DNA of 21,651 bases from a virus. The DNA lies in the IMG/VR virus record IMGVR_UViG_3300042887_000665, positions 1-21,651 of that record. The stretch is one strand, 5' to 3'. Made by a program: the position numbers and the translations under genes. The notes under the pieces were generated by a model. It made no database searches. It saw only the letters and a list, made by a program, of their open reading frames with translations, and was not told where the DNA came from. How positions within the stretch are numbered: position 1 is the first letter of the stretch; every line of letters starts with the position of its first letter. Shown here piece by piece: positions 9,290 through 20,540 of the stretch.

Positions 9290-9889
9290 ATGTCATACGC
9301 AAGTCTCGCCGAGTTCAAGGCTGCAATCGGGATCAGCGACAGCTCCGACGATACGGCGCTGCAGTCTGTCCTCGATGCGACCGACGCACTCATTGACCTT
9401 TACACCGATCGCAAGAACGGCTTTGGCACAGCGACACAAACGCGCTACTACACGGCAGAGGACTACAAGTACGTCCTCGTTGATGACCTTGTAAGCATTA
9501 CGACGCTGACGACTGACGACGACGGCAATGGCACCTACGAGACGACGTGGACGGTGGACACGGACTACAACCTCGCGCCTGGCAATGCCGCGCTTGATGG
9601 GTTTCCGTACAATGAGATTGACGTGTCGGTCAACTGGCCGCGCAACTTCCCACGCGACGTCTACCGCGGCGTCAAGGTGGTCGGCGTCTTCGGATGGCCG
9701 TCCGTGCCAAGCGCCGTGAAGCAAGCCGCAATCATTCAAGCCGGTGCAGTGTGGTCAAGCCGCACCTCGCCGTTTGGCGTAATCGGCTCGCAAGACCTCG
9801 GAGGCATCTTGCGCCAGACACGCGCACTGCACCCTGAATCTCAAGTCTTGCTCGAGGCATACCGCAAGCGCGAAGGGCTGGCTCGCTAA
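9290..9889 (+). CDS. Head-tail connector (gp6-like adaptor)
   Basis: The 199-residue product begins with a helical Y-A-S-L-A-E-F-K-A-A-I-G segment and D-A-T-D-A-L-I-D-L-Y, typical of gp6/gp15-type adaptors. A beta domain (Y-Y-T-A-E-D, L-V-S-I-T-T-L) and C-terminal helices (V-K-Q-A-A-I-I-Q-A-G-A-V-W, then L-L-E-A-Y-R-K) follow. These proteins form a ring under the portal to which the tail attaches. Position after the capsid protein fits this job. The stop overlaps the next ATG by one base. Confidence 0.82.
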   Translation: MSYASLAEFKAAIGISDSSDDTALQSVLDATDALIDLYTDRKNGFGTATQTRYYTAEDYKYVLVDDLVSITTLTTDDDGNGTYETTWTVDTDYNLAPGNAALDGFPYNEIDVSVNWPRNFPRDVYRGVKVVGVFGWPSVPSAVKQAAIIQAGAVWSSRTSPFGVIGSQDLGGILRQTRALHPESQVLLEAYRKREGLAR

Positions 9890-10245
9890 TGGCACTTGGC
9901 AATCGCTATGACTTAGAGATCAAACAGGGCGCAACCCTCTCCATTGTTGCGACGTGGAAAGATTCTGCCGGAACAGCAATCAACTTGACTAGCTATACCG
10001 CGCGACTATCTGTGCGTGAGACATACTCTTCGTCAACAAGCATCCTGACGCTCACTACCGAGAACGGCGGCATTACGCTCGGCGGCTCGGCTGGAACGAT
10101 TACCCTCTCGGCCAGCGCAACGACAACCGCTGCGTTGACCGCTCCGTTCAGCGGGGTCTATGACCTGGAGCTGGTGAGCGGAGGAGGCGTCGTTACTCGG
10201 CTCCTGGAAGGAGCTGCGACCGTTTCACCGGAGGTGACGCGATGA
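9889..10245 (+). CDS. Beta-sandwich structural protein (BppU N-terminal-like)
   Basis: This 118-residue protein starts with Y-D-L-E-I-K-Q-G-A-T-L and A-T-W-K-D-S-A-G-T, then I-N-L-T-S-Y-T-A-R-L, and ends L-E-L-V-S-G-G-G-V-V-T-R-L-L-E-G. This is the pattern of the small Ig-like domain that in other phages occurs alone or at the N terminus of fibre and baseplate proteins and is often described as BppU-like. Its stop overlaps the fibre start (ATGA), so it is probably a partner that anchors the fibre to the virion. The exact attachment site cannot be read from the sequence. Confidence 0.7.
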   Translation: MALGNRYDLEIKQGATLSIVATWKDSAGTAINLTSYTARLSVRETYSSSTSILTLTTENGGITLGGSAGTITLSASATTTAALTAPFSGVYDLELVSGGGVVTRLLEGAATVSPEVTR

Positions 10246-13061
10246 GCGTTACCGTCACCAAGACCGAGCAGACGGTCACGATTGATGACGGCCGTCAGGT
10301 CGTCACTGTTACCCCAGTCACGCAAACAGTATCAATTGCCGCGTCAGGTCCGCAGGGAGTTGCAGGACCAGCAGGATCACAAGGTCCCGCAGGTTCAGCG
10401 GGTCCAGCGGGATCTGCTGCGACAATTGCCGTTGGAACGGTTACGCAAGGCACCGCCGTCGCTGTCACAAATAGCGGCTCATCTTCTGCCGCCATCTTTG
10501 ATTTTGTACTCGCCAAAGGTGACAAGGGAGATACAGGAAACACAGGTGCCACTGGATCTACAGGAGCTGCAGGATCAGCCGCCACGATTACGGTCGGCAC
10601 TACAACGTCAGGGACTGCGCCTGTTGTCACTAACTCTGGCTCCTCCTCAGCCGCCGTCTTTGACTTTGTGTTGGTGCCAGGAGCGACAGGAGCGACTGGC
10701 GCTACCGGCGCGACTGGTGCTGCGGGCTCTGCAGCCACGATTGCGGTCGGAACCGTCACGCAAGGGACGGCGGTGGCCGTCACCAACTCTGGCTCATCGT
10801 CGGCTGCGATCTTTGACTTCGTGCTTGTCAAAGGCGACAAGGGCGATCAGGGTGACGCAGGTGCCACAGGCGCGACTGGCGCCACGGGCGCGACAGGCGC
10901 AGCAGGTTCTGCCGCTACGATTTCTGTTGGCACCGTCACACAAGGGACTGCCGTTGCAGTAACCAACAGCGGATCAAGTTCTGCTGCAGTCTTTGACTTC
11001 GTACTTGTCAAGGGTGACACTGGCGACACTGGAGCAACTGGAGCAACTGGAGCCACTGGCGCGACAGGCTCAGCGGCAACCATCGCCGTAGGCAGCGTCA
11101 CGCAAGGCACTGCCGTCGCTGTTACAAATAGCGGCTCATCGTCAGCCGCTGTCTTTGACTTCGTTCTCGTCAAGGGGGATAAGGGTGACACTGGGGACAC
11201 AGGCGCCACAGGATCAACTGGTGCGGCTGGCTCGGCTGCGACAATTGCGGTCGGCACGGTCATCACTGGCACCGCTGGCTCAAACGCCACGGTCACCAAC
11301 GTCGGCAGCTCTGGCGCGGCGATCTTTGACTTCAGCATTCCGCAAGGCGTCGCTGGATCAACAGGCGCGACAGGCGCAACTGGTGCGACAGGACCTGCAG
11401 GCACTGGCGTGCCGGTCGGAGGAACTGCAGGGCAGGTGCTCTCCAAGATCAACGCCACTGATTACAACACCGAGTGGACGACACCAACAGTTCCTGGAAC
11501 CGCGACAACTGCTGGCGTCTATGGCGTCACCACGCTCACGGACTCGATCTCCTCGACTTCTACAACGACGGCCGCAACTCCAGCCTCGGTCAAGAGCGCC
11601 TATGACCTAGCGGCCGGCAAGGTTGCATCCGTTGCCGGCACAGGGGCGATTGCATCAACTGGCGGGACAGCGCCCGTCATCTCCGTGGCAGCCGCATCAA
11701 CGACGGTTGTCGGCGCGGTGCAGCTCACTGACGCAACCAATAGCACGAGCACGACCACCGCAGCCACGCCAAACAGCGTCAAGTCAGCCTACGACTTGGC
11801 TGGCACGGCAATTCCAAAGAACACGCTTACGACGACTGGCGACATCCTGTATGCGTCTGGGTCAGCAACACCAGAACGCCTCGGAATCGGCACGGCAAAT
11901 CAGGTGCTCAGCGTTGGCACGGCAGGCATTCCGACGTGGAGCACGCCGAGCAGCGGCGGTAGCGCAACTTACTTTGTAACCACGGCGACTGGTTCATATG
12001 CCGGTACATCGCTGACAGCTCCTGCTGGCGCATACGCATTAACGAACTTGACCGACGGAACGGCAACGGTCGTAACAAATTCTGGAACGACTTACCTCGC
12101 GGCATACGACGCCACCTACTTGTCCGCGCTGTCAAATCTCACAACTGTTACAAAGGGCGCAGGTCCGACCGATGGCGTCACCTGGACATCTCGTACGTCT
12201 GGATTTGGAACATTCATTATCAACTCTGTAACATATGGCGGAACGCTGTGGGTTGCTGGCGGCGGGGCTGGAACGATGACGACATCGCCTGATGCAATTA
12301 CGTGGACTGCTCGAACATCTGGATTCTCATCAAATGCAATTAATGCTTTGACATATGGAGGTGGAACATACGTTGCGGGCGGCGCATCTGGAACGCTTAC
12401 GACCTCTGCCGACGGAATAACTTGGACTGGTCGCAACTCTGGGATGGGCGGTGAGGCGATCCACGGCGCGACGTATGCCGGCGGAACGTTCGTCGTGGTT
12501 GGGGCATCTGGGTCGGCAGCGTCGTCAACCAACGGCGCGTCTTGGACTGGGCGTAACTCTGGAACATCAATCATTTTGTATGACGTCAATTACGGCGGGA
12601 GCCTATTCGTCGCGGGCGGTCAGAGCGGTGCAATCAGAACATCGCCAGACGTAGTCACCTGGACAGGCCGTACGTCTGGATTTGGCTCGAACACGATCTA
12701 TGGAGTTGCGTACGGAAATGGGATTTTCGTCATCGGTGGAGATGCTGGAAACCTAGCAACCTCTTCGGATGGAATTACTTGGACCGCACGAACCTCTGGA
12801 TTCGGGACATTCGTGATAAATGACGTGAGCTTCGGACAGGGGCTGTTCGTTGCTGTTGGCGCGTCTGGCACAATGACTACTTCAACGGACGGCATTACCT
12901 GGACAGCGCGCACCGCTGGCTTCTCCACCACGGCAATTAACGATGGTGGCTACAATGGCGGCACTTACGTAATCGTAGGAGCGGCTGGCAAGATGGCAAC
13001 CTCGACCGTGTCGCTGACGCTTGATACGCTCTTGACGCCAGTCACATATCAGTCAATTTAG
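10242..13061 (+). CDS. Fibre protein: collagen-like stalk plus seven Asp-box repeats
   Basis: The 939-residue protein has an N-terminal beta segment (1-35). Residues 36-389 are a stalk where Gly-X-Y collagen blocks alternate with six copies of a beta unit (S-A-A-T-I-x-V-G, ending F-D-F-V-L-x-K-G). A region with two fibre-type repeats (about 425-457 and 489-520, each ending S-V-K-S-A-Y-D-L-A) follows. Residues 644-924 form seven repeats of about 40 residues, each starting with an Asp-box-like S/T-x-D-G-x-T-W. Seven such repeats suggest a seven-bladed beta-propeller receptor-binding head. GGAGGTGA precedes ATG 10242. The gene lies between head connector and tail terminator, not after the tape measure as is usual, so it may be a head or neck fibre. 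Confidence 0.86.
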   Translation: MSVTVTKTEQTVTIDDGRQVVTVTPVTQTVSIAASGPQGVAGPAGSQGPAGSAGPAGSAATIAVGTVTQGTAVAVTNSGSSSAAIFDFVLAKGDKGDTGNTGATGSTGAAGSAATITVGTTTSGTAPVVTNSGSSSAAVFDFVLVPGATGATGATGATGAAGSAATIAVGTVTQGTAVAVTNSGSSSAAIFDFVLVKGDKGDQGDAGATGATGATGATGAAGSAATISVGTVTQGTAVAVTNSGSSSAAVFDFVLVKGDTGDTGATGATGATGATGSAATIAVGSVTQGTAVAVTNSGSSSAAVFDFVLVKGDKGDTGDTGATGSTGAAGSAATIAVGTVITGTAGSNATVTNVGSSGAAIFDFSIPQGVAGSTGATGATGATGPAGTGVPVGGTAGQVLSKINATDYNTEWTTPTVPGTATTAGVYGVTTLTDSISSTSTTTAATPASVKSAYDLAAGKVASVAGTGAIASTGGTAPVISVAAASTTVVGAVQLTDATNSTSTTTAATPNSVKSAYDLAGTAIPKNTLTTTGDILYASGSATPERLGIGTANQVLSVGTAGIPTWSTPSSGGSATYFVTTATGSYAGTSLTAPAGAYALTNLTDGTATVVTNSGTTYLAAYDATYLSALSNLTTVTKGAGPTDGVTWTSRTSGFGTFIINSVTYGGTLWVAGGGAGTMTTSPDAITWTARTSGFSSNAINALTYGGGTYVAGGASGTLTTSADGITWTGRNSGMGGEAIHGATYAGGTFVVVGASGSAASSTNGASWTGRNSGTSIILYDVNYGGSLFVAGGQSGAIRTSPDVVTWTGRTSGFGSNTIYGVAYGNGIFVIGGDAGNLATSSDGITWTARTSGFGTFVINDVSFGQGLFVAVGASGTMTTSTDGITWTARTAGFSTTAINDGGYNGGTYVIVGAAGKMATSTVSLTLDTLLTPVTYQSI
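10413..11346 (+). repeat. Six tandem fibre-stalk repeats (collagen and beta unit)
   Basis: Copies begin at 10413, 10575, 10728, 10908, 11070 and 11232, with spacings of 162, 153, 180, 162 and 162 bases. The length differences come from the number of Gly-X-Y triplets between units. The proteins are nearly identical in copies 1, 3, 4 and 5, while the DNA differs at many third codon positions. Copy 6 is the most divergent. Confidence 0.9.
12165..13014 (+). repeat. Seven Asp-box repeats of the fibre tip
   Basis: Each unit of about 40 codons runs from an Asp box (D-G-x-T-W-T-x-R-x-S-G-F) through I-x-x-V-x-Y-G-x-G-x-F-V-x-x-G to the next Asp box. Units 3 and 4 are degenerate, with N-G-A-S-W and a one-residue-shorter core. 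Asp boxes mark sialidase-type and other beta-propellers; no sialidase catalytic set is visible, so binding rather than cleavage is likely. Confidence 0.85.
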
Positions 13062-13070
13062 GAGGATCGT

Positions 13071-13280
13071 ATGAGATACCGTTTTGAGATTGATGATCAG
13101 AATGCCGTTAGATTCTGGGATGATGAAAACCCAACGGAAAACGGCGCTCCATTTTTCTTTCAGCCAGACCATCCAGACGCTCGTCCCTGGCTTGACTACG
13201 ATGAGGCGCTTGCGTGGGCGACGGAATTCTTGAACAACCTGCTTGCCGCGCTTGAGCAGCCAGCAGAAGAGGAAATCTAA
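13071..13280 (+). CDS. Small acidic protein of unknown function
   Basis: A GGAGG site (in AGGAGGATCGT) precedes ATG 13071, giving a 69-residue acidic protein. It has R-F-E-I-D-D-Q-N near the N terminus, an aromatic P-F-F-F-Q-P segment, and the helix Y-D-E-A-L-A-W-A-T-E-F-L-N-N-L, ending with a glutamate-rich tail. The D-E-A-x-x-W-A helix recurs in small proteins encoded beside fibre genes in other phages. A chaperone for the fibre or a small structural role is possible but not shown. Its TAA abuts the next ATG. Confidence 0.62.
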   Translation: MRYRFEIDDQNAVRFWDDENPTENGAPFFFQPDHPDARPWLDYDEALAWATEFLNNLLAALEQPAEEEI

Positions 13281-13724
13281 ATGTCATTTTCAGACAAAAC
13301 CGTAATCGCTGGGCTGCGCGATCACCTGCTCAATGTTAATCCTCCGGCCGGCTATGCGCTTCGTGCGGTTCACGCCTATCCTCCCGATAATCTTTCCGTA
13401 GCTCCGGCTATCGTTGTGATCCCTGGCGACGACACGATCGGTTACGGAGCGTCAAATCGCCAGATCACGCTCACGCTCAATGTCACGCTGTATCTCTTGC
13501 CGCAGGCTGATCTTGCGCGAAAGTACGAGGATCTGATGACGTGGCGCACGTGGCTCCGCGACGCATTCATTGACGGCGTGACGCTCGACAACACAAGCGG
13601 TGTGGCACAAGCCAGCGTCGTTAGCACTACAATGGGAACTGATACCTGGGGAGACCAAGACTTCTTGACGATCTCCGCCGCGGTAGAAATTGCGTGCGTG
13701 GAGGCGATTGGAACAAGTGCCTGA
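13281..13724 (+). CDS. Probable tail terminator or tail completion protein
   Basis: The 147-residue product has an alpha/beta layout typical of tail terminators: an N-terminal helix (I-A-G-L-R-D-H-L), strands such as A-I-V-V-I-P-G-D-D, a beta run I-T-L-T-L-N-V-T-L-Y-L-L, a helix (Y-E-D-L-M-T-W-R-T-W-L-R) and a final strand with F-L-T-I-S-A-A-V-E-I. Such proteins cap the tail tube and meet the head connector. The position before the major tail protein agrees. Sequence identity in this family is low, so the name rests on length, secondary-structure pattern and context. Confidence 0.7.
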   Translation: MSFSDKTVIAGLRDHLLNVNPPAGYALRAVHAYPPDNLSVAPAIVVIPGDDTIGYGASNRQITLTLNVTLYLLPQADLARKYEDLMTWRTWLRDAFIDGVTLDNTSGVAQASVVSTTMGTDTWGDQDFLTISAAVEIACVEAIGTSA

Positions 13725-14966: not shown

Positions 14967-15257
14967 ATGAGCCAGAGCAAGCCACAGTTCCGCACCGTTG
15001 AGGTGCGCCTTACGACCCCATTTGAGGGCTGGGAAGCCACGATGAAGGCTGAGGGAGTTCCAGCGCGCATCCTGATTGATTTGCAAAGCGGCGAAGCGGA
15101 GCGCGCGATGAAGGCGATTGAGCGCCTGATCACAAAGCACAACTTCTTGACCGACGACGGCGAGCCGGCAAAGAGCATCATTGACTCGCCGATGGACGCG
15201 CTGACGCAGACGATTGAGAAGTGGTCGGAGGCAGTCGCAGCACTCCCCCCTCGATAA
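14967..15257 (+). CDS. Tail assembly chaperone G
   Basis: ATG 14967 follows a strong AGAGGAGGAGG ribosome binding site (14952-14962). The 96-residue protein has the features of gpG-type chaperones: a beta N terminus (V-E-V-R-L-T-T-P-F-E-G-W), then helices (A-E-R-A-M-K-A-I-E-R-L-I) and a C-terminal amphipathic helix, ending A-L-P-P-R. Its final codons form the slippery run CCCCCCT at 15245-15251, shortly before the TAA at 15255-15257. In other long-tailed phages this protein and its frameshifted form guide tail protein assembly on the tape measure and are absent from the virion. Confidence 0.86.
   Translation: MSQSKPQFRTVEVRLTTPFEGWEATMKAEGVPARILIDLQSGEAERAMKAIERLITKHNFLTDDGEPAKSIIDSPMDALTQTIEKWSEAVAALPPR
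15245..15251 (+). other. -1 ribosomal frameshift site CCCCCCT
   Basis: The zero-frame codons CCC CCT preceded by C make a perfect X-XXY-YYZ heptamer, so both tRNAs can re-pair one base upstream. A possible stem (CGAC at 15262-15265 with GTCG at 15285-15288, plus inner GC pairs) lies about 11 bases downstream and could stimulate the slip. The frame entered stays open to 15442. Confidence 0.85.
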
Positions 15258-15442
15258 GACTCGACGCCCAGCGGCTGGCGGCGGGTCGTTCGCTCACGCC
15301 GCACCCGCTAATCGCGGCACACCTCATTGCCGAGAAGTTCCACATCCCACCGCACGAAGTGCTGGAGTGGGAAAGCGGAGACTTTTTTCGTACACTGATG
15401 CTGATGTCCGACCTACAGCCAAAGGAGCGTCGTGGCCGCTAA
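15251..15442 (+). CDS. Tail assembly chaperone T domain, made by -1 frameshift from G
   Basis: After slipping at CCCCCCT, ribosomes re-enter at 15251 (TCG) and read 63 further residues, giving a G-T fusion of about 158 residues (segments 14967-15251 and 15251-15442). The extension starts S-I-R-L-D-A-Q-R-L and has the helical phrase A-A-H-L-I-A-E-K-F-H-I-P-P-H-E-V-L-E-W, like gpT-type domains that contact the tail tube protein. There is no good separate start: a GTG at 15221 lacks a ribosome binding site and lies inside G. The end overlaps the next gene by 11 bases. Confidence 0.82.
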   Translation, partial: SIRLDAQRLAAGRSLTPHPLIAAHLIAEKFHIPPHEVLEWESGDFFRTLMLMSDLQPKERRGR

Positions 15443-15944: not shown

Positions 15945-17224
15945 TGGCATTCGGATCTGACCGCTCCGCCAACTTTGTCATCAAGGCGAAGGATGCCGCT
16001 ACTGGGCCGCTTGGCAAAATCGGTGGCGCGCTGGGAAGCCTCAAGAGTGCCGCCGGCACCGCATTCAAGGCCATTGCTGCTGGAGCCGTAGCTGCTGCCA
16101 CGGCAATTGCCGGCTTCGCTGTTGCCGGCATCAAGGCAGCCGTAGAGGATGAGCAGCAGACGATTCGACTTAATGCCGCGCTAAAGGCGCGAGGATTTGC
16201 GCTTGATCAGCTAGGCCCGAGGGTTGAGGAGCAAATCAAGGCGATGCAGCGGCTCGGCTTTACTGATGATCAGGTGCGTTCTGGACTAGAGGTTGGAAGC
16301 CGCTTCTTCAAGAATCAAGACAATCTCCTGCGTGCCAATGCGGTAGCTGCAAACATCGCGGCAGTCACAGGCAAAGACCTTGCGACCGTAATGCTCGCCA
16401 TCGGGCGAGGCTCGTTGGGAAGCACACGCGGTTTGATGCAACTCGGCATCCAGGTGGAGAAGGGCGCAAAGCTCAAAGACATTCTTCGCGCTGCTGATGA
16501 GAAGTACGCAGGAACGGCTGAAGAGCTTGCAAATAGCACCGCAGGAAAGTTTGCCGCAGCCCAGATTACGTTCAACGAGCAGATTGAGGCGCTTGGCTAT
16601 CGCTTCTTGCCGGCGGTAAGCACGGCAATGGATTTCCTTGCCAAAAACGTTCTTCCGATGACGGACAAACTCTTTACCGCTCTTGGCGACACTCTCGTTG
16701 GACTGAGTTCTAAGATCACCGAAAAGGGCGGACTTCTTGATTCCGTGCTATCAGTAGTCGGACCTATTGCCGCACGCCTTGCACCTGCAATTGGCGATGT
16801 TGGCAAAAAGATTGGTGAGCTGCTTGGCTCTGTCGGCGAACTTGTGGTTGCACTTTGGGACGATGGCAATGGGCCGCTTGCGATCGCCGTGAGCGCCATT
16901 GGTGGACTGTTTGAGGGTCTTATCAAGGTTCTTGGCTTCGTGGTCGATACGATCAAATTGATCATTGACATTGCGACAGAGGCGGTGAAGTTGCTTGACA
17001 AGCTGGGCGGGAAAGCACGCGGACAGGCGGCGCTTCCAACATTCACCGGCGGCGGCGGAAACTACGGTGGCGGCGGCGGTGGGCAGCAAGGGATGTCGCC
17101 ATACCCGACAGGGCCAATTGGCGCGAACATCGTCATCGGGACGAACTCACTAGACAGCATTGACCTTTATCTCGGCCAGCAGGCACGAGTCTCAACTGGA
17201 AGAACGATCCCAGGTAGGGAATAA
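15944..17224 (+). CDS. Tail tape measure protein (short)
   Basis: The 426-residue protein begins S-A-N-F-V-I-K-A-K-D-A-A-T-G-P-L, then an alanine-rich hydrophobic helix (A-A-G-A-V-A-A-A-T-A-I-A-G-F, near residues 44-62). A long helical middle has T-G-K-D-L-A-T-V-M-L-A-I and L-M-Q-L-G-I-Q-V, typical of tape measure proteins. A second hydrophobic stretch lies near residues 305-345, and a glycine-rich hinge (about 366-383) precedes the C terminus. No peptidase or lysozyme domain is seen. At the usual scaling of about 0.15 nm per residue it predicts a tail of only about 60 nm. It overlaps its neighbours by one base on each side. Confidence 0.88.
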   Translation: MAFGSDRSANFVIKAKDAATGPLGKIGGALGSLKSAAGTAFKAIAAGAVAAATAIAGFAVAGIKAAVEDEQQTIRLNAALKARGFALDQLGPRVEEQIKAMQRLGFTDDQVRSGLEVGSRFFKNQDNLLRANAVAANIAAVTGKDLATVMLAIGRGSLGSTRGLMQLGIQVEKGAKLKDILRAADEKYAGTAEELANSTAGKFAAAQITFNEQIEALGYRFLPAVSTAMDFLAKNVLPMTDKLFTALGDTLVGLSSKITEKGGLLDSVLSVVGPIAARLAPAIGDVGKKIGELLGSVGELVVALWDDGNGPLAIAVSAIGGLFEGLIKVLGFVVDTIKLIIDIATEAVKLLDKLGGKARGQAALPTFTGGGGNYGGGGGGQQGMSPYPTGPIGANIVIGTNSLDSIDLYLGQQARVSTGRTIPGRE

Positions 17225-19299
17225 TGGCAACGGCTCCATTTCAGCTATGGATTGACCTTGCTGCAATCTCCACGGCGGTTCGCTCTTCTGGCACCGTCAC
17301 CGTAACCACCTACTCGCCGCACGGAATCACCACTGGCGCATATATCCAACTTGACCAAGCCGCTGGTACCGCCGGGACGTCAATGAATGGCGTGTATCAG
17401 GTCACCGCGACCTCTGGGACTACGTTCACTTTTGCGGCGTCTGGAAGCGACGGAACGGCGACCGTCGGTTCGGCGTACATCAGTTACGACCTCCTGAATC
17501 CGCTGATTAACTACTCTGGAACGGCAAAGGATTCTGCGTTGTACGTGCCGACAGAATCTCTGCTGTTTTCTACCAGCGGCGATGGCTCTGGCGCAACGAG
17601 CGCATTCACAGTGCTCCAAGACGACACGCCGAGCGACGGCCCGTGGTTCAAGCTTATCCCCGATCAAACCCGCGTACGGCTAGTCAAGAAAGACACTGGA
17701 CAGACTCCGGCATCGGACAAGAGCGACGTATTTTTCGTCAGCGCAGTCGCGTCGATCAACTCAATCATTAACGGATCGGGGCAGGGCAGCATCTCCTCGG
17801 TGTCACTTCAAGACCCAACGAGCCTGCTAGAGAAGATCTATGTCTACACCTACAACGCTCAGCCCCGCATCATCAAGCGGGACGGCATTTCACGAGAGGG
17901 CGGAGTTGTCGACGTTGTAACGGTCATCACGAATCAGTCTCCTGGGTTTAGCGTCGGCGGAACTGTTCAGATCAAGGGTGCATTCGGTGGTGACAACCTA
18001 AGTTTCAACGACAACTATGTGATCTCAACTGTTACCGACACGCTCTTTACCGCAAGCCAAAACGCAAACACGGCGACTGGGAACGGCGAGTACACCATTA
18101 CATCAGCCGCGATGTTCGGCACCACAACGAATCAGGTTGAGATTGACCCGCAGGACGGCCTCTTCATTGACGACGGGATCGTTGTGCTCAGCGGTATCAC
18201 GTCAACAAATGGCACCGCGCAAAACTTGATCAATACCGTCTTTGACTACGATGAAGTATCTGGAAGCACTGGCGACAAATTTGTCGTAACGCTCGCTGGA
18301 AGCGTGCCGAATAACACCACCTTCAATGTGGCAAACGGAAAGATCACTGGTCTTCCAATTGTTACCCCGCTCGGGGTAACAACGGCGATTGCTGCATCAA
18401 TTCCCGCAGACACGCTTGAGACCGCTGCCGTAACAACCGCGCTGGCGGCGGTGCATACAAACAAGGCTGGCGACTATCCACTTCAGCGCCTCATCAATAC
18501 CGCGTCGACCGCGTTTATTTCTGGCGCAAGTTTCCGCACGAACAGGGAGGAAATTAACATCACCGGCCAGAGCCTGCGTAGCATTCTTGACACGATCATT
18601 GAGGCGTATCAAGCCGAAGATGGCAAGGCGCGCAGATACTTCGTTGACCAGGCTGGCAACCTGAACTACGGGTTGATTGATACGGCCGCGCAGCCAACAT
18701 ATGCGACGGCTCCGTACAAAATCATCACGAGCGGAACGCAAAACCCAAATACGACGACAGCGGCTGCAACCATAATTCCGTACTCACTCCAGATTGGGTT
18801 TGACCACCAGACGACAAAGGGCGGGATGGTTCTGGGTCAGGGGACTGCGTATCAGCCGGTCTATACGACCTACGCCGACTATGGCTATTCGGAGCGCAGG
18901 GGTGCACCAATATTTGACGGAGTCATCCCATCGCTGGAGGTGACGTCAAACTACAATGCCAACGCATACAGGTACGCAAATGGGTATTTTGCAGACTCCC
19001 ATCTTCCATTGATGAGCGGCTACTTTACGTTGCGCGGCGCTGGCACGGCAAGCCACAATCAGTACGGCTTCAGCGCAGGCTACGCCCAGACTGGCGGCAC
19101 GGCGTTCTCGCTCGTCAACCGATGGTCGCCTGGTCAATGGGTTGACGTCACGTGTGCCGAGCTTGGGCTAAGCGGGTTGTATAGAATCGAGCAGGTAGAC
19201 TGGACGATGGAGCGCGGCTCCTTTACGCAGGTCATTACGATCACGTTCAGTTACAAGCCGCAATTTAGTTTGAGTAGCCAATTAGCACAGGTGAGGTAA
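17224..19299 (+). CDS. Tail hub / distal tail protein
   Basis: The 691-residue product follows the tape measure and overlaps it by one base. Two beta modules of similar design are visible: residues about 23-86 (P-H-G-I-T-T-G-A-Y-I then N-G-V-Y-Q-V-T) and about 226-297 (F-S-V-G-G-T-V-Q-I-K then N-D-N-Y-V-I-S-T-V). The C-terminal third has S-L-R-S-I-L-D-T-I-I and Y-F-V-D-Q-A-G-N-L-N-Y-G, and ends with W-S-P-G-Q-W-V-D-V-T and V-D-W-T-M-E-R-G, as in gp27-like hubs. It probably forms the tail tip and initiates tube assembly. No lytic domain is evident. The N-terminal residues could include the distal tail (Dit-like) domain. Confidence 0.76.
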   Translation: MATAPFQLWIDLAAISTAVRSSGTVTVTTYSPHGITTGAYIQLDQAAGTAGTSMNGVYQVTATSGTTFTFAASGSDGTATVGSAYISYDLLNPLINYSGTAKDSALYVPTESLLFSTSGDGSGATSAFTVLQDDTPSDGPWFKLIPDQTRVRLVKKDTGQTPASDKSDVFFVSAVASINSIINGSGQGSISSVSLQDPTSLLEKIYVYTYNAQPRIIKRDGISREGGVVDVVTVITNQSPGFSVGGTVQIKGAFGGDNLSFNDNYVISTVTDTLFTASQNANTATGNGEYTITSAAMFGTTTNQVEIDPQDGLFIDDGIVVLSGITSTNGTAQNLINTVFDYDEVSGSTGDKFVVTLAGSVPNNTTFNVANGKITGLPIVTPLGVTTAIAASIPADTLETAAVTTALAAVHTNKAGDYPLQRLINTASTAFISGASFRTNREEINITGQSLRSILDTIIEAYQAEDGKARRYFVDQAGNLNYGLIDTAAQPTYATAPYKIITSGTQNPNTTTAAATIIPYSLQIGFDHQTTKGGMVLGQGTAYQPVYTTYADYGYSERRGAPIFDGVIPSLEVTSNYNANAYRYANGYFADSHLPLMSGYFTLRGAGTASHNQYGFSAGYAQTGGTAFSLVNRWSPGQWVDVTCAELGLSGLYRIEQVDWTMERGSFTQVITITFSYKPQFSLSSQLAQVR

Positions 19300-19515
19300 A
19301 TGTCGCCACGAGTCACGCAAAACGACGAGATCCTGAAGCGCCTTGACTTGATGAACGCACGCCTTAATTCGCAGTCCGAGAAGATTGACGACCTCAAGGC
19401 GGAGATTGACCAGATGAAGGGCGGCCTTGCCGTCCTGAAGGGGCTTGGCGCCCTACTTGGCGTAGGAGGAATCGGCACGCTTCTGGCGTGGTTGCAATCT
19501 CAATCAGGCAAGTGA
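19300..19515 (+). CDS. XhlA-like small membrane protein (candidate holin or lysis helper)
   Basis: This 71-residue protein directly abuts the hub gene (TAA then ATG). Residues 8-42 form a charged, heptad-like coiled coil ([11 protein letters not shown]), and residues 44-65 form one hydrophobic segment ([17 protein letters not shown]). This coiled-coil-then-TM plan is that of XhlA-type proteins, which associate with holins in lysis. Alternatively it may be a membrane-anchored tail or superinfection protein. The last four bases form a GTGA overlap with the next gene. Confidence 0.7.
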
Positions 19516-20540
19516 GGTTGCGCGCACTCCTGCTCGCGCTGGCAATCGTCTTGCCATTCGTTCAGCCTGTCTACGCGCTTGACGATCTTGACGAGTGGGA
19601 CTTCAGCACCGACTCCAACGGCACGGTCGTCACGAACGAGGATGGCTCCGTCACGATCGGCGGCGCGAACAATCCGCTCCCTGAGCAGCCACGCTGGAAC
19701 GCGCTAACCAGCCTGACCACAACCGCACTAGAAGCTGAGACGGCGCAGTACCTCTGGTCATACCTGACGACCGACGGCGCGTTCTACGACAAGCCGCAGT
19801 ATCTCGTGGGCGGCGAGTGGCTCACGCTTGCAGAGGGCAACACGCAAGTAGCCACCGGCTACATCGAGGTGGTGCTGGCCGCAGGTGACCTGTTCGGCTT
19901 CCGCGTGCTGTCCACCGACTCGTGCTGCGGCATCGGCTTCCTCACAATCGCCGTAGGCAGCCCTACGCCGTCCCCAGAGCCGACTCCTGAGCCGACCCCT
20001 ACCCAGACACCAGAAGAGCCTTCACCAAGCCCTAGCGTGGCTCCTACCCCTACGCCAGAGCCTTCTGTAGAGCCGACGCCTGAGCCTACGCCAGAGCCTA
20101 CGCCTGAGCCTACCCCTGAACCAACCCCATCACCAACGGAGGAGCCAAGTCCTGAGGTGACCAATGAACCAACCCCAGAACCAACGCCAGAGCCAACGCC
20201 TGTACCAACAGAAGTTCCGCCATCTCCTTCCGTATCTCCTGATCCCACTCCTGTACCTACTCCTGAACCCGAACCCGCTCTGCCAGTTGTAGGGGCTGCG
20301 GTTGAGGCAGTCGGCGAGGTGTTCGCCAACATCGCGGCCATCACCGAGATCGGCAAAGACCTTGATCCGATTGAGAAGGAAGAGGCGCAGCCGGTTGCCG
20401 TCGCAATCCTTGCCAGCCAAGTTGCAAGTGTGGCTGCCGCAGCGTCAAATGCAGCACGAGCGGCTGCTAACATTGGAGGCGGCGGACCAGCGGGAGGCAA
20501 TGGAAATACGCCAAGCCGAAAGGGTGGTCGCCGTGCTTAG
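19512..20540 (+). CDS. Secreted jelly-roll protein with Pro-Thr-Glu repeat stalk, unknown function
   Basis: I start at GTG 19512, which makes the GTGA overlap seen at other junctions; GTG 19488 is also possible. The 342-residue product begins with a clear signal peptide ([14 protein letters not shown], probable cleavage after V-Y-A at residue 22). Residues 25-148 look like an extracellular beta-sandwich ([26 protein letters not shown], and a vicinal cysteine pair S-C-C-G). Residues 154-259 are P-T-P-E-P repeats, as in wall-spanning linkers. An alanine-rich C-terminal helix and a basic G-G-R-R-A end follow. It is likely exported, maybe held at the cell surface. I cannot name its function. Confidence 0.75.
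19970..20275 (+). repeat. Pro-Thr-Glu (PTPEP) coding repeats
   Basis: This segment is built of short units encoding P-E-P-T, near-perfect as 12-base repeats around 20067-20130 and again about 20166-20205, with varying third positions elsewhere. It yields an extended, rigid, acidic linker about 100 residues long and creates a long glycine/serine shadow frame on the opposite strand. Confidence 0.85.

Follow-up and report, generated by a model that had tools for sequence, protein, structure and literature searches.

An accessory and mobile fibre cassette with an LtfC/BppU-type anchor in the connector-terminator slot of a small phage

Where on the virion is a fibre carried when its gene lies between the genes of the head and those of the tail? 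The question is raised by a single virus record of 21.7 kb, IMG/VR record IMGVR_UViG_3300042887_000665, whose full stretch of 21,651 nucleotides is called the window here. In the window a 118-amino-acid (aa) protein (9889-10245) and a 939-aa fibre (10242-13061) are encoded directly behind a head-tail connector (9290-9889), all on the plus strand like the other features located below. A preliminary description, made from the sequence alone, took the small protein for an adaptor and placed the fibre on the capsid, neck or collar because of its gene position. The explanation that fits the evidence best, with a probability of about 0.5 for the whole of it, is that these two genes and a 69-aa gene missed by that description (13071-13280) are an accessory host-recognition cassette of three genes, in which the small protein would form a ring of the LtfC/BppU-N kind and dock at the neck, on the connector.

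The family and fold of the 118-aa protein place it among fibre anchors. Its open reading frame (ORF) shares the stop/start TAATG with the connector ORF. A Pfam scan at E<=1 gave no family, and the protein matches phrog_1084 (2e-27), listed as of unknown function, and phrog_3304 (3e-8), labelled 'L-shaped tail fiber protein assembly'. A profile built from 23 members of the anchor family and searched against the PDB recovered 26dk_M (5e-10), a full-length match to ORF087 of Pseudomonas phage KPP25, and DT57C LtfC weakly (0.022); the place of ORF087 inside PDB entry 26dk was looked up and not found. The AlphaFold2 (AF2) model is a confident beta-sandwich, with a predicted local distance difference test score (pLDDT) of 91, and Foldseek ranks DT57C LtfC first among its matches. 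VIA gives Z scores of 12.2 to LtfC (111 residues), 11.9 to T5 p132, which has the BppU-N fold (PMC7291167), 11.0 to Douge BppU, 9.2 to the Sf14 neck, 9.1 to the Bas63 connector and 9.0 to the P74-26 neck. These six top ranks are all phage proteins. Unrelated immunoglobulin (Ig)-like folds come next at Z of about 8, level with TP901-1 BppU and 80alpha at 7.8. Membership in the T5/DT57C LtfC (p132)/BppU-N fibre-anchor superfamily is thus confirmed at the level of the predicted model, and the BppU-like beta-sandwich of the preliminary description with it. The VIA ranking further indicates that the fold is a fibre-anchor fold in use at tail tips and at necks alike. By extension phrog_1084 gains a likely role as a family of fibre anchors.

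The anchor is coupled to its fibre in the genome and probably in the virion. The fibre start overlaps the anchor stop by four nucleotides (ATGA, 10242-10245), with GGAGG just upstream at 10230-10234. Among 82 cassettes, 81 have a four-nucleotide overlap of this kind, which would couple translation of the two genes. The fibre matches Pfam Collagen (6.6e-13) and Phage_fiber_2 (2.3e-21). Its residues 1-35 (10242-10346) make up a strand-like N terminus, the candidate anchor-binding segment, and the length type of this segment covaries with the type of anchor: the fibre N terminus is longer beside type 1 anchors (YDLEIKQGAT) and shorter beside type 2 anchors (FDLTINQGAT). The collagen-like stalk follows (10347-11408), with seven Gly-X-Y blocks and modules of about 30 aa between them. 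Blocks of at least four Gly-X-Y triplets total 153 residues of the fibre, whereas 1000 composition-preserving shuffles of it averaged 7 and never exceeded 54. The putative receptor-binding head (12162-13016) consists of seven Asp-box-like repeats of about 40 residues, each with the motif D-G-x-T-W; it is propeller-like by sequence only, its AF2 model being unusable (pLDDT 51). Coordinates, ATGA coupling, stalk and Asp-box repeats all agree exactly with the preliminary description, and the fold and family of the 118-aa protein, together with its conserved pairing with a fibre, support the adaptor role that it was given there.

Around this pair the rest of the cassette varies. Genes like the 69-aa one sit 3' of repeat-headed fibres at the related loci L001, L013, L042, L050 and L072, so that on sequence grounds it appears to belong to the cassette as its third member, probably as a partner of this kind of head or a protein for its assembly. 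The heads of cassette fibres vary from phage to phage, and several of the other types are accompanied by small downstream partners of their own. For instance, the cassette fibre of L019 (8354-10600) bears CBM_5_12 and Phage Tail Collar domains, so that here an anchor of this kind carries another sort of head, and the cassettes of L014 (1516-4858), L033 (994-4951) and L040 (3917-8410) have a second fibre-tip-like gene and more small partners after the main fibre. A single anchor was found in each of 18 cassette-bearing records and none in 20 cassette-free ones, with positive controls run.

A working model can be assembled from these parts. The 118-aa anchor would most likely ring a virion tube, and the strands of the fibre N terminus would join its beta-sheets, as in DT57C, where each fibre N terminus adds two short strands to the LtfC dodecamer (PMC10713586). 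The stalk, presumably a collagen trimer, would project the head outward to bind a receptor, the 69-aa protein may aid assembly of the head, and the cassette would be gained, lost, relocated and re-headed as one unit. The PHROG label of the anchor also suits a quite different role, in which it would only assist assembly of the fibre and stay out of the virion. This seems very improbable, since DT57C LtfC is a virion ring (PMC10713586), deposited structures include T5 p132 and KPP25 ORF087, and a separate small assembly-like gene is already present 3' of the fibre.

The slot of the cassette is strongly conserved. The connector lies directly 5' of the anchor in 71 of the 80 closest homologues. 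Among connector relatives, the cassette stands behind the connector at 94 loci and a terminator-like gene directly behind it at 155, both counts including overlapping loci of one contig. The two states, with and without a cassette, are found in several connector clades, and many sisters have connector and terminator adjacent; the cassette is therefore inserted at a single junction and has been gained or lost on more than one occasion. It has also moved. In L039, L044 and L053, anchors 84% identical to those of the neck slot lie between tail and lysis-type genes, after the tail-tip protein, and their tail-side fibres share the N terminus of the neck-slot fibres. Cassette anchors are found 5' of the connector in L057 and L059 and 3' of lysis-type genes in L076. 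More distant members of the anchor family occupy tail-fibre positions in phages VP882 and phiHAP-1 or, in alphaproteobacterial contigs, adjoin a 1239-aa protein resembling a tail tip. The cassette is thus confirmed as accessory and mobile.

These data bear directly on the position-based proposal of the preliminary description. The gene upstream is indeed a connector (PF05135, 8.8e-6; phrog_442, 2e-16). The downstream gene, encoding a 147-aa protein (13281-13724) outside the cassette, is less securely a tail terminator: a match to Tail_completion_gp17 (3.9e-4) was obtained in one of eight relatives, and the assignment otherwise follows from its position, next to the connector in cassette-free relatives. 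The neck gene slot is real, but attachment to capsid, neck or collar does not follow from it; gene order alone does not support a location on the virion. Relatives with the gene in a tail position, which the preliminary description had named as evidence against its proposal, exist in part, as the 84%-identical tail-side anchors attest. Since one adaptor-fibre module turns up in several places in the gene order and alongside tails of very different types, the position of its genes should not be taken to show where the fibre sits on the virion. A further reading mounts the fibre directly on the capsid and makes the 118-aa protein its adaptor to the capsid protein. The genes do lie in the head block, yet the listed structural matches include no capsid-bound protein and same-family anchors are present in phages with unrelated heads, which makes this site highly unlikely.

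A functional clue comes from the other end of the tail. Cassette-free sisters of the window, with connectors 90-92% and tube proteins mostly 93-99% identical, encode a Gly-rich fibre of 540-583 aa after the tail-tip protein. The window lacks this gene: behind its tail-tip protein (17224-19299) the stop and the following start are adjacent, with no gene between. Among records of the window's tail type with both junctions visible, the post-tip fibre is absent from seven of eight cassette records and present in all cassette-free ones (16 loci, about 11 distinct). The corresponding 7,1/0,11 table would have a probability of 8/50388 if the records were independent, a figure that shared ancestry reduces to a guide. 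Strict exclusion was considered and rejected, as L015/L179 has both fibres (L015 being the exception) and so does the other tail type. No match between cassette fibres and post-tip fibres was found by blastp; the sole link is the Gly_rich_2 profile, which for the post-tip fibre falls below its cut-off. Near-exclusion in one tail type and co-occurrence in the other suggest a host-recognition device that replaces or supplements the tail-tip fibre, and the cassette looks like a swappable module for host recognition.

A stronger version of this idea holds that the cassette replaced the tail-tip fibre outright, so that a neck-mounted, LtfC/BppU-ringed fibre is the sole receptor-binding fibre and one cassette exchange moved recognition from tip to neck. 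This is unlikely on present evidence, although if true it would make these small phages a clear example of a move of host recognition from the tip to the neck. A fibre at the neck is not necessarily a primary receptor: the head module of the neck fibre of Anabaena phage A-1(L), when tested, did not bind the host (PMC10966104).

The docking site itself is finely balanced between neck and tail tip. For the neck, which has about even odds as the site, the likeliest partner on balance would be the ring of the connector encoded just 5' of the anchor. L018 and L033 are informative here: their anchors are 92% and their connectors 99% identical, yet their tube proteins share just 31% and their terminators 48%. 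There is also precedent in neck passage structures (NPS). In 936 phages the NPS gene lies 5' of mtp and its product has been located at the neck by immunogold labelling (PMC4759559); the protein contains a BppU-N domain (PMC6669499), and in TP901-1 a BppU-N ring of the NPS has been modelled around the adaptor (PMC10747895).

Several observations weigh against the neck. The best structural match of the anchor is LtfC, a tail-tip collar. The tail-side anchors of L039, L044 and L053 come without a recognisable connector homologue, close anchors are also found with unrelated heads, and connectors that are 55% identical accompany anchors that are 91% identical. Where the window's tail type carries the cassette, the post-tip fibre is mostly missing, a pattern expected of a tail fibre that has been relocated. 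In TP901-1 the neck-fibre gene follows bppL and closes the tail module (PMC4493119), which makes gene order an unsafe guide to location. Much of this would be expected if the same cassette formed its anchor ring at the distal end of the tail, like LtfC in T5 and DT57C, and displayed a lateral tail fibre whose genes had moved into the head block. This alternative is a substantial possibility, if short of an even chance: LtfC/p132 is ranked top by both Foldseek and VIA, and the anchors between tail and lysis-type genes, the VP882, phiHAP-1 and alphaproteobacterial members and the near-exclusion with the post-tip fibre all agree with it. It does not readily account for an anchor that stays 92% identical while the tail proteins around it diverge as they do between L018 and L033, nor for the strong conservation of the slot adjoining the connector, and the joint presence of cassette and post-tip fibre in the other tail type means that the cassette need not occupy the tip.

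Two attempts to name the docking partner were not successful. Comparison of identities leaves docking unsettled, as the anchor tolerates divergent tails and divergent connectors. A two-residue insertion at connector residues 15-19 separates cassette-free (long-loop) from cassette-bearing connectors completely in the window's clade (V=1.00, 41 distinct connectors), but as a docking signal it failed in two further connector clades, where the short loop is also found in most cassette-free phages. Only a one-way relation is left, in that no long-loop connector has a cassette directly behind it, L057 having a long loop and its cassette upstream. The loop is therefore not used as evidence. Hitchhiking can account for the N-terminal sites that segregate in the terminator-like protein.

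The cassette resembles several known systems, each of them in part. In T5 and DT57C the anchor (p132 or LtfC) is likewise a separate small protein of BppU-N fold encoded immediately 5' of its fibre, and the DT57C fibre LtfA, like that of the window, has a strand-like N terminus, two strands of which are inserted into LtfC (PMC10713586). The T5 genes, however, belong to the tail operon and their ring is at the tail tip, whereas the window pair lies behind the connector and has a collagen stalk and a repeat head. NPS proteins of 936 phages and TP901-1 combine a BppU-N domain with a fibre and a binding head, as the window pair probably does, and the 936 gene, 5' of mtp and present or absent among close relatives (PMC4759559, PMC6669499), resembles a cassette that also lies 5' of a tube-protein gene. 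The differences are that an NPS consists of one polypeptide whose stalk is a coiled coil, in place of two ORFs and a collagen-type Gly-X-Y stalk, and that NPS phages retain a receptor-binding protein at the tail tip, whereas the window has no recognised post-tip fibre.

Other parallels are more distant. The neck structures of Sf14, Bas63 and P74-26 share the anchor fold at sequence identities of just 10-17%; Sf14, whose whiskers gp30/gp31 are held by the adaptor gp37 (PMC11821841), and Bas63 are myophages, and P74-26 is a thermophilic siphophage. N-terminal ring domains hold lateral binding parts in TP901-1 BppU, the 80alpha fibre and Douge BppU (PMC7291167, PMC13033339), but there the domain is fused to the remaining protein and sits in a baseplate, unlike the separate anchor of the window. 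In phage A-1(L) a small N-terminal domain mounts the fibres on a ring at the neck (PMC10966104), but the anchor fold is pilus-like and the genes are in another operon. The T4-type fibritin whisker (wac) has a fibritin domain, to which the window fibre has no match in Pfam at E<=1 (its matches being Phage_fiber_2, Collagen, DUF6242 and FlgT_C). The general kind of system, an LtfC/BppU-type anchor plus a fibre, is already known. The seemingly new features are the occurrence of a two-gene, collagen-stalked form between connector and terminator, the mobility of that form and its partial interchange with the fibre of the tail tip.

In the remainder of the window, the head part encodes small and large terminase, portal, protease, an HK97-type capsid protein, a short ORF and the connector. 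Behind the cassette come the terminator-like protein, a tube protein (Phage_tube_2), small overlapping ORFs, the tape measure (phrog_991), the 691-aa tail-tip protein and a lysis-like block. The overlapping small ORFs (14967-15257 and 15221-15442), 5' of the tape measure, lie where genes for tail assembly chaperones are usually found. Beside the lysis-type genes, a 350-aa protein (19488-20540), signal-like at its N terminus and containing long Pro/Thr/Glu repeats, has no family match and is kept in relatives. Upstream of the terminase lie a methyltransferase-like and a glycosyltransferase gene (143-739 and 1512-2783). The head block of phiPsal1 and L057 likewise contains glycosyltransferases, and such genes may hint at glycosylation of the virion.

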